From Vibrio kanaloae (GTDB taxonomy: Bacteria; Pseudomonadota; Gammaproteobacteria; Enterobacterales; Vibrionaceae): a DNA stretch of 64,000 nt. Under the pieces are notes generated by a model, which saw only the letters and a program-made list of their open reading frames with translations, made no database searches and had not been told where the DNA came from. Position 1 is the first letter of the stretch. Every line of letters starts with the position of its first letter. The translations under genes and the position numbers were made by a program. The stretch covers positions 2,542,001-2,606,000 of the forward strand of contig NZ_AP025497.1 of the NCBI RefSeq assembly GCF_024347535.1, in the 5' to 3' direction. This document shows positions 18,032 to 23,117 of this stretch, piece by piece.

Positions 18032-20281
18032 CTATTTTTTACCTGCTCGAATGAAGCCTGTAAATTCACGCTCTTCGAAATAGTTGAGCATCATACTATA
18101 GATGTCACAACCATACGGTTTTGAAAGTGCCTTATTTGCCAGATCTTGCAGTTCACTAAGCTTAGATTGACGAATTAAATATTTAGTCCTTGCGACATTT
18201 GAGGTATTCATACTTAACGTCTCATATCCTAATCCAATCAAGAGCAAAGCGCCCATTGGATCACCCGCCAACTCTCCACATATACACACAGGCAATTGAT
18301 ATTGCTTACAAGTATCATGAATGTGTTTCAATGCCATGATCACTGCAGGGTGCATGGATTCATAGACATCAGAGACGCGGGAATTGTTCCGATCAACCGC
18401 CAATAAATATTGGGTTAAGTCATTGGTGCCCACCGAAACGAAATCAACTTTATCCGCAATAAGCGGAAGAAGGTAAAGCATTGATGGCACTTCAATCATG
18501 ATACCGATACGTGGCATCCGAACTCGACTGTCGAGCTCATGTACTTCATCGTAGGCTTGCTCGATGAGTTGAACAGTATCATCCAGTTCTTGAGTGCTAG
18601 AGATCATTGGCAACAAGATACTCAAATTCTGGCTATCACAACTCGCACGTAACATCGCACGCAACTGGATAATAAATATATCGGGGTGATCGAGCGTAAA
18701 GCGAATACCACGCCAGCCAAGAAATGGGTTATCTTCTTCTATTGGGAAGTAAGGTAATGCCTTATCGCCACCAATATCCAAAGTTCGCATCACAACTTGC
18801 TTTTCAGGGTAACTCGCGAGGACAGAGCGATACTGCTTGAACTGTTCGTCTTCTGACGGGAACCTTTGCTGAAGCAAGAAAGAAATTTCGGTTCGATACA
18901 GACCAACCCCATCAACACCTTGGTTGATAGCTATGTTGGTATCAGCACTTAATCCCGCATTAAGTAGGATTTCAATTTGCTTGTTATCTTGTGTCTTCGC
19001 AGGTAAATAGAGCTCTCGGCTAACCATAGAAGAGAGCTCACTCTCCTCTAAAATAAACCCTTGGTATTCAATCAGTAGACTCTGAGTCGGCTCAATAAAT
19101 ATCTCACCGCTGTACCCATCAACAATGGCTTGTTTGCCATTCACTTGAGCTAGGTTGAGATTAATGCCCATTACCGAAGGAATGCCAAGCGCACGAGATA
19201 AAATCGCCGCATGCGAGTTTGCCGCCCCTTCTAAAGAAATAACAGCCAACAGCTTCTCTTTCGGTATTGAAGCTAATACTGATGCCGTCAACTCACGCAC
19301 AACCAAAATAATCGGCTTATCGAACGTACGTAACTCTTGTTCTGAATTATGGAGAAAATAGAGTAACCTTTGACCAAGCTCACGAATATCTTGTGCCCTT
19401 TCTCGAAGGTAAACATCAGACATACGAGCAAAACGGTTAGAGTAACTCTCAACAACTTGTCTTAATGCCCAATCGGCCTTATCGCCTTTCTGAATTTGGT
19501 TTTTCAGATCCTTACGTAACATAGGATCATTCAGTAAGTGCGTAAACAGGTCAAAGATCGCCAGCGCATCTTTATTAATATCACTATCCAAGCGCTTGCG
19601 CATACGCTTAAAATCATTGAGGGCATTTTCAACCGCAACCGCCAACAACTCATGCTCCCTTTCGACATTAAGCGTCGACGCAGGGTAAACATCGGTTAAT
19701 TCAGGCTGCGTGTTATCCCACCACAAATCACCAATCGCCACACCCGATGACGCAGCGACACCTTTAGTCGCAGGCAACTTTTGCTGCTCTAATAACCAAT
19801 GACCTTGGGTTTGAGCATGCGCAACAATAACGGCAAGTTGTGCTGAGAGCGTGACAAGAAAAGACTCTTCCATTTCACTGAATAAACGGGGGGACTTCTG
19901 TTGAATAACCAAAACGCCAAGCACTTGCTTGCGATAGATGATGGGAGTGCCAAGAAAAGAGTGATAAACCTTCTCTCCCAGCTCTGGAAAAAACTTATAA
20001 TCGGGGTGAGCAGAGGCTTGTGCGAGGTTGATTGGCTCTGCACTTCTTTTGACAAGGCCAACCAGGCCTTCGTCAAAACCAATGTGAATACTATTGCCTT
20101 TGAAGATCAGGCCTTGAGTTGCCATCAACTCAAGGCGCTGCATATCATTATTTGCTAAATAAACGGTGCAGCATTCAGTCTGCATCGCACTGCATGTCTC
20201 TTTAACTAAAATATCCAGAGCCGTCGACACATCTTCAACTCTTGATACGTGTTCAACTATTTCCCTTAGTTGACTGAGCAT
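18032..20281 (-). CDS. ptsP: Enzyme I-Ntr (PEP-protein phosphotransferase PtsP)
   Basis: PtsP takes phosphate from PEP and passes it to NPr in the nitrogen PTS, a regulatory relay. The 749-residue protein has an N-terminal GAF domain (about 1-165) that can sense nitrogen status, the phospho-His domain with GGANSHAAILSRALGIP, and the C-terminal PEP-utilising TIM barrel (RTEISFLL, GIMIEVPS, VSVGTNDLTQY, CGELAGDP). E. coli PtsP is 748 aa. It starts two bases after rppH ends, as in E. coli, indicating translational coupling. Confidence 0.96.
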   Translation of the reverse strand: MLSQLREIVEHVSRVEDVSTALDILVKETCSAMQTECCTVYLANNDMQRLELMATQGLIFKGNSIHIGFDEGLVGLVKRSAEPINLAQASAHPDYKFFPELGEKVYHSFLGTPIIYRKQVLGVLVIQQKSPRLFSEMEESFLVTLSAQLAVIVAHAQTQGHWLLEQQKLPATKGVAASSGVAIGDLWWDNTQPELTDVYPASTLNVEREHELLAVAVENALNDFKRMRKRLDSDINKDALAIFDLFTHLLNDPMLRKDLKNQIQKGDKADWALRQVVESYSNRFARMSDVYLRERAQDIRELGQRLLYFLHNSEQELRTFDKPIILVVRELTASVLASIPKEKLLAVISLEGAANSHAAILSRALGIPSVMGINLNLAQVNGKQAIVDGYSGEIFIEPTQSLLIEYQGFILEESELSSMVSRELYLPAKTQDNKQIEILLNAGLSADTNIAINQGVDGVGLYRTEISFLLQQRFPSEDEQFKQYRSVLASYPEKQVVMRTLDIGGDKALPYFPIEEDNPFLGWRGIRFTLDHPDIFIIQLRAMLRASCDSQNLSILLPMISSTQELDDTVQLIEQAYDEVHELDSRVRMPRIGIMIEVPSMLYLLPLIADKVDFVSVGTNDLTQYLLAVDRNNSRVSDVYESMHPAVIMALKHIHDTCKQYQLPVCICGELAGDPMGALLLIGLGYETLSMNTSNVARTKYLIRQSKLSELQDLANKALSKPYGCDIYSMMLNYFEEREFTGFIRAGKK

Positions 20282-20283
20282 GC

Positions 20284-20802
20284 TTAACCTCTACGCAATT
20301 TGCGTTTTCCTTTTGTTTTTCGCTCTTTAAACGGCATTGCCAAAGATGCGAATTCTTTCATCGCTCGACGATAAACATCTCGCTTAAAAGAAACAACTTG
20401 TCGAACTGGGTACCAGTAACTCACCCAACGCCAACCATCAAACTCAGGTGTACTTCCACGCTGCATATTGATACACGATTCATCGCAATCTAAGCGTAAA
20501 AGGAACCACTTCTGTTTTTGTCCAATACAGACAGGTTTCGAATCCCACCGAACCAGTCGTTTGGGTAGCTTATAGCGTAACCAATGACGACTTGTCGCGA
20601 CGATTTTTACATCCTTTTTTGTAAGGCCAACCTCTTCATACAACTCGCGGTACATTGCCTGTTCCGGAGTTTCACCTTCATCTATTCCCCCTTGAGGAAA
20701 TTGCCATGAATGTTGTCCGTATCGTTTAGCCCAGAAGACCTGACCATGGTTGTTACAGATTACAATACCAACATTTAATCGGTAACCATCGCCATCTATC
20801 AC
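20284..20802 (-). CDS. rppH: RNA pyrophosphohydrolase
   Basis: RppH removes pyrophosphate from the 5' end of mRNAs, which opens them to RNase E. The Nudix box [20 protein letters not shown] plus VGL is complete. I choose the GTG at 20802 because the product then begins (M)[13 protein letters not shown] as in E. coli and GAGG lies 7 nt upstream; the open frame runs 21 codons further to 20865, into the DnaA-box region. The result is 172 aa (E. coli 176). It heads the rppH-ptsP-tauE-lgt-thyA operon. Confidence 0.95.
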
Positions 20803-21419
20803 TGGCCAACCTCTATCTAAATTTTTAATTACACTGATTTTTCCACATATCCCCAATTGGAGCAAACTTAGTGACGTGACAAGCGCTATATTTATGAATA
20901 TTAACTAAGAATATGGATAAGTTTTGCTCAAATCTTAGTTACCCACACAAGAGTGAGACATAGACCACATTTATTCACCTTTTCTGTGAATAACTATGTG
21001 AAGAATTACCAGAAATCGTTTTTTTTAATCCATAAACTCATCAGAACCATAAATAACAAAATCCAAAATTAAAAATAAAAACATTAAATATCAGTAACAT
21101 AAAGCATAATGCTGTGTATTTTAGAATTAAAAAACAGCAGAAGATCTTTCAAAAATTCAATATGGTTAAAGATCAATCACCCAGCAGTTTATCCACACTA
21201 GTAAGTGAAAGATTCATTTTAAACATCATTTAGCAAGCATTTTATCCCCCACTAAACCCTGTTTATTTATCCACTAAATTAATATTTCAATTAATTACGT
21301 TTATGTCCTGTGGATAACCATGAGTTTGATCTCTTTTATAACAAGGAGATCATTTATTAACCACTCGGCATTTAGTGATAACTTCTGATAAAATCGTTTT
21401 TTTGATCATACCTTTTATT
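20803..21419. other. DnaA-box cluster between rppH and mutH (DARS2-like)
   Basis: This 617-bp AT-rich gap holds four exact matches to TTWTNCACA: 20839-20847 (TTTTCCACA, +), 20985-20993 (TTATTCACA, -), 21189-21197 (TTATCCACA, +) and 21309-21317 (TTATCCACA, -). Near matches occur at 20912 (-), 20939 (+), 20971 (+) and 21267 (+). The 20971 and 20985 boxes face each other 5 bp apart. Five GATC sites lie between about 21143 and 21407. In E. coli the DnaA-reactivating sequence DARS2 lies beside mutH, so a DARS2 orthologue is the best inference. Confidence 0.6.
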
Positions 21420-22085
21420 ATGAAACCAGAACCACAAACACAACAAGAGTTATTAGACAGAGCGTATGCGATTGCCGGAATGACTTTTAAAGAGCTCGCG
21501 GATGAAGCCGAGATGGTGATGCCAAACGACCTTAAGCGTGATAAAGGCTGGGTTGGACAATTACTGGAATGGCACTTAGGCGCGCCAGCAGGCAGTAAGC
21601 CAGAACAAGATTTTGCTAAATTAGGTATCGAGCTTAAAAGCATTCCAATTGGCTATTCTGGAAAGCCACTCGAAACTACCTTTGTTTGTGTCGCCCCACT
21701 GATGGGGGTGCAGGGATTAACATGGGAAACCAGCCACGTCCGAAACAAACTATCTAAAGTATTGTGGATCCCTGTAGAAGGTGAAAGGGAAATTCCATTG
21801 GCAGAAAGGCATGTTGGCTCTCCCTTACTCTGGACACCAAACGAAGCTGAAGATGAGCTTCTAAAAAGGGACTGGGAAGAACTGATGGAATTGATCGTGT
21901 TAGGTAATGTTGGACAGATAACAGCAAGGCACGGTGAAGCATTGCATCTTCGACCAAAAGCCGCTAACAGTCGAGTGTTAACTGAAGCTTACGGTGCAAG
22001 TGGCAAACCCATCAAGACCAAACCACGTGGTTTCTACCTGCGAACTCAATTCACACATAAATTGCTGACAACACACTACGCATGA
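21420..22085 (+). CDS. mutH: DNA mismatch repair endonuclease MutH
   Basis: MutH nicks the unmethylated strand at hemimethylated GATC after activation by MutS and MutL. The 221-residue protein has the PD-(D/E)XK core: [19 protein letters not shown] (catalytic Asp, Glu-x-Lys) and the [12 protein letters not shown] motif with [11 protein letters not shown] start at the ATG at 21420 ([11 protein letters not shown]), in line with the family; the frame extends to 21375 without a ribosome site. No strong Shine-Dalgarno precedes 21420 either. It diverges from rppH across the DnaA-box region. Confidence 0.95.
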
Positions 22086-22128
22086 TCGTAATAACAAGCT
22101 CTGTTTATAAATACCTTATATACGCCCT

Positions 22129-22440
22129 CTAATGAGGTTTGAGTGCCAGTTCAATATCACAGTAGCTGTGACTTGGCTCATTACCAAATTCATCATACGC
22201 ATTGTGTAAACGAAGATAGGCCTTTTCAAAACCAAGCCGAAGTAACTCCTCTTTTACTTGATCTAAAGATCCAAAATGAAGTGGCACACCGTCTTGTTTT
22301 ACCGGTTCCAGCTTATGTTTGTACTCCACCGCTAATAGATATTCTGAGATATCAGAACAGCCAATAACGTACACTTTGGGTGTTTGATAAGAGTCTTTGT
22401 GCTCTCCATGTAACCACATGTCTAATTGATGCTTTTGCAT
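22129..22440 (-). CDS. Conserved small protein, DUF6482-like
   Basis: This 103-residue soluble, acidic-to-neutral protein has no signal peptide or membrane segment. It includes the stretch VYVIGCSDISEYLLAVEYKH and a C-terminal SHSYCDIELALKP. I associate it with the DUF6482 family found in vibrios, from memory. Function is unknown. It is transcribed toward the mutH stop and is followed by no clear terminator. Confidence 0.7.
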   Translation of the reverse strand: MQKHQLDMWLHGEHKDSYQTPKVYVIGCSDISEYLLAVEYKHKLEPVKQDGVPLHFGSLDQVKEELLRLGFEKAYLRLHNAYDEFGNEPSHSYCDIELALKPH

Positions 22441-22510
22441 AAACGTTCTCCCCCTGCTCTATAAAGCGTAGTTGAACTCTTTTCCTTTACTAGATAACGG
22501 CTTAAAAAAG

Positions 22511-22542
22511 CAAAAAAGAGAAGCAAGTGCTTCTCTTTTTTG
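22511..22542 (-). terminator. Terminator after the DUF1127 gene, perfect 15-bp palindrome
   Basis: CAAAAAAGAGAAGCA (22511-22525) and its exact complement (22528-22542) are separated by two bases; the arms include A6 and T6 tracts. It is a strong bidirectional intrinsic terminator for the DUF1127 transcript. Confidence 0.8.
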
Positions 22543-22599
22543 TCCAGTTCTAGTTCAAAAGTTTGCATTTTCGACGCCATAACTATCACTGTAAGTTAT

Positions 22600-22632
22600 C
22601 TTAGGGGTTGAACGGTGCTATCAACCCCTAAG
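22600..22632 (-). other. 12-bp hairpin abutting the DUF1127 stop codon
   Basis: CTTAGGGGTTGA and TCAACCCCTAAG are exact complements around a 9-nt loop, one base past the DUF1127 stop. No T run follows, so it is not a terminator itself; the real one is about 60 bp further on. It probably protects the 3' end or forms part of a 3'UTR RNA. Confidence 0.65.
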
Positions 22633-22633
22633 A

Positions 22634-22885
22634 TTACGTCGGTATTCGCGCACTTAGGACACGACGAAGGTGACGTACTCGACGTTCAATAGTGACAACT
22701 TCTGGTTCAGAAAAACCAATCGGTCGACCGTCAGCTTCAAGACCAATATCTCTTAATAAATGAGTATTGTTCCAAGGTAGCTCATATGAACTACGGCGAA
22801 CTTTTCGTTGCCATTCGCGTTCTTCACGACGAAGATCGGCACGGATAAGGATTGTTGCTAATTTTAAATATACTGAGTGACGCAT
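22634..22885 (-). CDS. DUF1127-family small basic protein
   Basis: This 83-residue, Arg-rich protein carries the DUF1127 motif LLRDIGLEADGRPIG in its second half (residues about 43-57). It lacks a signal peptide. DUF1127 proteins (YjiS-type) are small, induced in stress or stationary phase, and in some alphaproteobacteria bind RNA; no function can be assigned here. GGAG lies 8-9 nt before the ATG. An 11-bp inverted repeat lies just upstream and two strong hairpins just downstream. Confidence 0.8.
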   Translation of the reverse strand: MRHSVYLKLATILIRADLRREEREWQRKVRRSSYELPWNNTHLLRDIGLEADGRPIGFSEPEVVTIERRVRHLRRVLSARIPT

Positions 22886-22914
22886 AATAACTCTCCAGTT
22901 GTTGGATCAACTGA

Positions 22915-22969
22915 GGAAAAATAGCGTGTTAGATCGTATGAGGGCTTCTCACTTAGCTGCTATTTTTCC
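22915..22969 (-). repeat. 11-bp inverted repeat in the DUF1127 leader
   Basis: GGAAAAATAGC (22915-22925) and GCTATTTTTCC (22959-22969) are exact complements with a 33-nt interval that contains an inner TGAG/CTCA pairing. It lies between the stop of the 40-codon ORF and the DUF1127 ribosome site and could be a terminator or leader structure. Confidence 0.6.
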
Positions 22970-22994
22970 GCAGCCAAATAAGGGTACGGATCTA

Positions 22995-23117
22995 TTAGTT
23001 AGGTTTATCTTGGGTGTTTCGATCGGCCATGGCTGATGTGTGTGACATATCAGTCACCATGTCAGTACACGGATCAAACGATGCGCAAATATGCTGTATA
23101 AAATCGAAATGTTTCAT
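22995..23117 (-). CDS. Small ORF of 40 codons with a strong ribosome site
   Basis: I do not recognise this peptide (MKHFDFIQHICASF... to ...NTQDKPN). The support for translation is GGAGG at 23123-23127, 5 nt before the ATG. The frame extends upstream to 23234, but those codons have no ribosome site. It has two cysteines, several His and Met, and no membrane segment. It lies 109 bp upstream of the DUF1127 gene on the same strand, with a hairpin between them, so it may be an independent small protein or a leader ORF. Confidence 0.5.
   Translation of the reverse strand: MKHFDFIQHICASFDPCTDMVTDMSHTSAMADRNTQDKPN

Follow-up and report, generated by a model that had tools for sequence, protein, structure and literature searches.

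The intergenic gap between rppH and mutH in Vibrio kanaloae carries a dense group of DnaA boxes, which raises the question of whether it is the counterpart of DARS2, the DnaA-reactivating site found beside mutH in E. coli. We addressed this question in a window of 64,000 nucleotides around the gap (the whole stretch of DNA that was analysed), in the complete V. kanaloae genome, whose contigs are designated C1 and C2, and in related genomes. Our analysis indicates that the gap is very probably the Vibrio DARS2 orthologue, with DnaA reactivation predicted by homology to E. coli, and the same search uncovered a third core of this type on chromosome 2. The identification as DARS2 is right but already in print for V. 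cholerae and is therefore not new: according to a review (PMC6090056, citing Fujimitsu 2009), that species has DARS-like sequences at uvrB and mutH, and strain N16961 was included in an alignment of DARS2 homologues in 2021 (PMC8682772, Figure 8). The published V. cholerae DARS2 likewise lies at mutH but belongs to a different species from the present one. In V. kanaloae, the rppH-mutH element confirms a replication-control site that was already known.

A cluster of DnaA boxes between rppH and mutH

The preliminary description placed the gap between rppH and mutH, and the flanking proteins do match the NUDIX and MutH families of Pfam; the bounds in Table 1 assume a GTG start at 20800-20802 for rppH and an ATG start at 21420 for mutH. 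PEP-utilising enzyme domains were matched by Pfam in the gene beyond rppH, an order that agrees with ptsP-rppH-mutH of E. coli. An RNA gene in the gap was considered and rejected, as the single Rfam match up to E = 1 within 19500-23000 (22597-22635) falls outside the gap and far under the cut-off.

Four exact matches to TTWTNCACA were located in the gap, at 20839 (+), 20985 (-), 21189 (+) and 21309 (-), in agreement with the number that had been described, and those at 21189 and 21309 both read TTATCCACA. The four near matches of the preliminary description have to be revised to seven boxes with one mismatch (20912, 20922, 20939, 20971, 20997, 21217 and 21267). Across the 64-kb window there are seven exact boxes, a total at chance level (mean 8.2), and it is the clustering of four of these seven within the gap that counts. 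Dinucleotide shuffles of 20818-21419 contained 0.16 exact boxes on average, with four or more in 0 of 2,000 shuffles.

Geometry of the core and correspondence with E. coli DARS2

Three of the boxes form a DARS-type core in which box I is opposed to boxes II and III, with starts at offsets of 0, 14 and 26. As had been claimed, the boxes at 20971 and 20985 point towards each other across a 5-bp spacer; the former (TTATTCACC) has one mismatch. We compared 484 geometries over the whole window, allowing at most one mismatch in box I and at most two in boxes I and II together: only (14,26) reached ≤2 mismatches, while the runner-up had 4. Together with the shuffles, this control rules out a chance cluster of DnaA boxes.

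Table 1 Coordinates of the features in the window and elsewhere in the V. kanaloae genome (window positions unless a contig is given)
Feature	Position	Strand or replicon	Remarks
rppH (NUDIX protein), flanking gene	20284..20802	-	Pfam PF00293
rppH-mutH intergenic gap	20803..21419	no strand	probable DARS2 orthologue; gene neighbours as in E. coli
Upstream DnaA box TTTTCCACA	20839..20847	+	Vibrionaceae addition; TTTTYCACA, near -132
Weak upstream box TTACCCACA	20939..20947	+	one mismatch
DARS-type core, three DnaA boxes	20971..21005	+	offsets 0/14/26 as in E. coli DARS2 and DARS1; geometry control
Core box I TTATTCACC	20971-20979	+	one mismatch
Core box II TTATTCACA	20985-20993	-	exact box
Core box III TTCTTCACA	20997-21005	-	one mismatch
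Candidate IHF-bent stretch (IBS1-2 position)	21074..21101	+	21074-21086 (1 mismatch), 21089-21101 (2 mismatches); weak
Fis-type site, FBS2-3 counterpart	21164..21178	+	one mismatch to Fis consensus; motif AAAGATCAA at 21168-21176
DnaA box TTATCCACA, E. coli box V position	21189..21197	+	putative box V, assigned from position
mutH-side DnaA box TTATCCACA	21309..21317	-	+338 from core start
mutH, flanking gene	21420..22085	+	Pfam PF02976
DARS1 counterpart	C1:2124787-2124821		upstream of uvrB; three-box pattern
datA counterpart	C1:2843663-2843690 (L099:1501-1528)		between queG and tRNA-Gly/tRNA-Met array; facing boxes, 10-bp spacing
Third DARS-type core	G000 C2:1107272-1107306 (L061:1989-2023)	chromosome 2	offsets 0/14/26

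The three boxes of E. coli DARS2 (ATCC 8739, locus L009) have the orientations seen in Vibrio, with starts at 1369, 1383 and 1395, and box I of the E. coli site is letter-for-letter identical to the Vibrio box at 20971. The same 0/14/26 core is present in E. coli DARS1, which lies at a different locus, between bioD and uvrB (starts 393, 407 and 419 in L115). DARS sites have been described as three boxes, spaced equally at both sites, with box I opposed to II and III (PMC5742627), and the geometry and orientation of the Vibrio and E. coli cores agree with that description. The E. coli site is located between rppH/ygdT and mutH, and the Vibrio element lies in the same rppH-mutH gap. The correspondence extends beyond the core: measured from the core start, the Fis-type motif AAAGATCAA is at +197 in the window and +190 in E. 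coli DARS2, the TTATCCACA box after it at +218 and +211, and the reverse TTATCCACA near mutH at +338 and +330, respectively.

Differences from the E. coli site were also found: Vibrionaceae carry one extra conserved upstream box, the Vibrio gap is shorter, no ygdT reading frame was seen in it and its IHF matches are weaker. E. coli DARS2 requires IBS1-2 plus FBS2-3, and these sites are conserved in related species (PMC4245941), while IHF and Fis are not required at E. coli DARS1 (PMC5742627). A counterpart of FBS2-3 beside the putative box V is recognizable at the level of sequence, with one mismatch to the consensus and a retained alignment block. The two candidate IHF sites (21074 and 21089), with one and two consensus mismatches, have few conserved columns in an alignment of 29 sequences. 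Because E. coli DARS2 needs IBS1-2 as well as FBS2-3, this weakly conserved stretch is the weakest point of the proposed homology. One mismatch each in boxes I and III could also be held against it; the E. coli box I, however, has the same sequence.

As rppH and mutH are divergent and the entire gap is their upstream DNA, the boxes might instead regulate the two promoters and play no part in nucleotide exchange, and transcriptional regulation by DnaA is indeed known from other sites in E. coli (PMC11317965). We consider this very unlikely, since the three-box geometry and the long-range spacing match a site with a known nucleotide-exchange function and the same core geometry recurs at uvrB and elsewhere; promoter control and nucleotide exchange could also both operate at the gap. 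The crtS site of V. cholerae, an extra-origin site that remodels an initiator and has been likened to DARS in print, was rejected as an identity for the gap: crtS acts on RctB, whereas DARS acts on DnaA, and the likeness is one of analogy only.

Our observations on the DARS2 orthologue concern its sequence and geometry, its place among the genes and its conservation; that DnaA, IHF and Fis bind there, that ADP is released and that timing may be affected we infer from E. coli. By this homology, ADP-DnaA would bind the three core boxes at 20971-21005, with a head-to-head contact between the proteins on boxes I and II and release of ADP. The freed apo-DnaA could then take up ATP and regain the ability to initiate at the origin of chromosome 1. 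The Fis-type site and the next box (21164-21197) would activate the core during growth, perhaps also helped by the IHF-bent stretch near 21074-21101.

Conservation of DARS2 across genomes

We next compared 53 sequences: 31 of 42 usable MutH loci, the window, E. coli and 20 further regions (two loci with a truncated MutH, L051 and L052, were excluded from this comparison and from the MutH-locus core scan). At ≤3 mismatches, a core was found upstream of mutH in all 31 Vibrio sequences, 442 to 489 bp ahead of the gene, in 7/8 sequences from other Vibrionaceae genera (G001 being the exception) and in 8/8 from E. coli and other Enterobacterales. Among the other six sequences, that of Gallibacterium (L034) has a 3-mismatch site at a different distance and five have no core. 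In the scan of the 42 usable MutH loci, 16 showed no core at ≤5 mismatches (eight Pasteurellaceae, four Methylophaga and four others).

The offsets 0/14/26 were constant over all sequences of the 53 having a core. In the 31 Vibrio sequences, the box after the Fis-type motif was invariably at +216 to +219 and the mutH-side box at +335 to +338. The extra upstream box, TTTTYCACA, was at -131 to -133 in 31/31 Vibrio and at -132 to -149 in all seven other Vibrionaceae with a core, and was absent from all eight sequences of E. coli and other Enterobacterales. The place of the weak box at 20939 (-32) is occupied by an exact TTATTCACA in L144, L023 and L024. Conserved blocks in the 29-sequence alignment comprise the core, an AAAgATc block with TTATCCACA after it, and TGTGGATAA close to mutH. 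The preliminary description had proposed a Vibrio DARS2 orthologue that a lack of box conservation across vibrios would contradict, and the gap position, core geometry and orientation, near-equal offsets and presence of the core before mutH in 31/31 Vibrio sequences all point to such an orthologue. This constancy also bears on the idea that the gap only titrates DnaA and takes no part in nucleotide exchange. Several strong boxes do stand in close array, and chromosomal titration has been argued for E. coli (PMC12371093), yet titration needs no set geometry and 0/14/26 is held in every core-bearing sequence, so that we regard this explanation as highly improbable.

A second, degenerate three-box core was seen at the mutH end of DARS2 in E. 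coli (L009:1675-1717) and several Enterobacterales (L025-L031), with 4 to 5 mismatches; the Vibrio sequences of the same scan had none.

Counterparts of DARS1 and datA

Facing box pairs 5 bp apart occur at four places in the V. kanaloae genome, one of them on contig C2. A three-box pattern allowing ≤3 mismatches matched three sites in the genome, namely DARS2, a DARS1 counterpart upstream of uvrB and a site on C2, and its reversed control matched none, although this is not a blind test because the pattern was written after such sites had been seen.

Another pair of facing boxes, C1:2843663, was set aside as a further DARS core on account of its 10-bp spacing and datA position: its double box resembles that of E. 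coli datA and occupies the same place, which in E. coli is between queG and tRNA-Gly genes. Facing pairs of this type, identified by box pattern rather than by neighbours and with one-base spacing variants included, were present in 15/19 Vibrio genomes. With the mnmG start (gene named by eye) taken as oriC, the datA, DARS2 and DARS1 counterparts of V. kanaloae are 20.3, 38.0 and 65.6% of the half chromosome away from it. The E. coli values, calculated from the genome length and the coordinates in Table 1 of PMC11317965, are 20.1, 41.2 and 65.8%. Medians in 11 or 12 Vibrio genomes were 17.3, 36.5 and 59.5% (ranges 13.7-26.8, 30.1-46.1 and 56.7-78.1%), and the agreement with E. coli is thus approximate.

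On chromosome 1, two DnaA boxes with a 5-bp spacer form a perfect palindrome (C1:1147066-1147088; L054:667-689). Having no third box in register, this pair was rejected as a DARS core; pairs of this type recur in most of the 19 Vibrio genomes, often near a FocA-type and an NapC-type gene (named by eye).

A chromosome 2 site with DARS-type core geometry

The exact pattern of the chromosome 2 core was found in 117 of 138 Vibrio genomes, once per genome, with no control matches, and one of the 21 genomes lacking it (G132) has a variant core. In a subset of 19 Vibrio genomes, all had a core of this type (18 exact and the G132 variant). It was never on the DARS2 contig in the 18 genomes in which DARS2 was matched in the same search, and it shared a contig with ori2-type iterons in at least 14 of the 19. 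It is mostly found close to the terminus of its replicon: its median distance from these iterons was 95% of the half replicon in 13 genomes (>90% in ten; 85.3, 78.5 and 53.8% in the remaining three), a figure that assumes complete circular contigs and comes from related genomes that are not independent events. Cores were also found on two replicons deposited as plasmids (NZ_CP045339.1 and NZ_CP045356.1) and on contigs of 4.07 and 3.24 Mb (G231 C1 and G204 C1), which are perhaps fused or rearranged replicons.

Conservation is concentrated in the core itself, with an identity of 0.91 over its 35 bp in 18 Vibrio, versus 0.39 and 0.41 in the flanks, and of 0.86 versus 0.33 and 0.36 after six more sequences were added. 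There was no Rfam match at gathering score in 13 loci with the core. The geometry alone is not a mark of chromosome 2, since such cores were detected at ≤2 mismatches in 42/65 genomes of the same order beyond Vibrionaceae (31 with one core, nine with two, one with three and one with four). Nor is the chromosome 2 core needed by all Vibrionaceae, given that 6/7 genomes of g10 have the mutH site alone among the matches listed; among the same matches, g6 and g8 have C2 look-alike cores at other loci.

In most cases a YbbP/FtsX-type permease gene ends on one side of the core (17/18 loci) and a FAD-dependent oxidoreductase gene begins on the other (18/18), and the core could be an operator of the oxidoreductase gene. 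The frame of the FAD gene starts 136 to 314 bp past the core start in all 18 Vibrio loci, the gene also follows the core in three other genera (L117 to L121; g4, g9 and g11), and a conserved GTCAAG and T-tract separate the two. Against this, three loci (L098, L164 and L165) combine the core and permease gene with no FAD gene match within 2 kb on either side, and two (L078 and L161) have the core and FAD gene with the permease absent, arrangements that show the core to be tied to neither gene. The FAD gene was likewise not matched at look-alike loci L122 to L136 (g3, g6, g7, g8 and a second g9 site; loci taken from the matches listed). On balance, we view the operator explanation as somewhat doubtful. 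A more speculative reading, which we hold to be somewhat less likely than not, is that chromosome 2 of most Vibrio may harbour a third DARS, in general distant from the origin of that chromosome, and that replication of chromosome 2 would feed back on the ATP-DnaA pool for initiation of chromosome 1.

Known communication between the two chromosomes runs from chromosome 1 to chromosome 2, via crtS. If the third DARS is real, the DARS2 of the window would be one of three DnaA-reactivating sites distributed over two chromosomes, and the chromosome 2 core would represent a return signal, opposite in direction to crtS. Blocked initiation of chromosome 2 does not prevent chromosome 1 replication (PMC5991422), and a core that reactivates DnaA would offer a testable route for a milder signal from chromosome 2 to chromosome 1. 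A 'speculated DARS3' has been mentioned for E. coli (PMC4585315), and the chromosome 2 core is a candidate for a site of that kind. No DARS on chromosome 2 is described in the searched text of PMC5991422, PMC5854411, PMC3937223, PMC8826520 and PMC11711613 or in the other literature searched, which lay mostly outside subscription papers, and within these limits the core is apparently new.

In L061-L078 and L098, the DNA downstream of the chromosome 2 core contains a conserved GTCAAG with a T-tract after it. Read on the opposite strand, this segment looks like an A-tract and a TTGAC promoter element aimed at the core.
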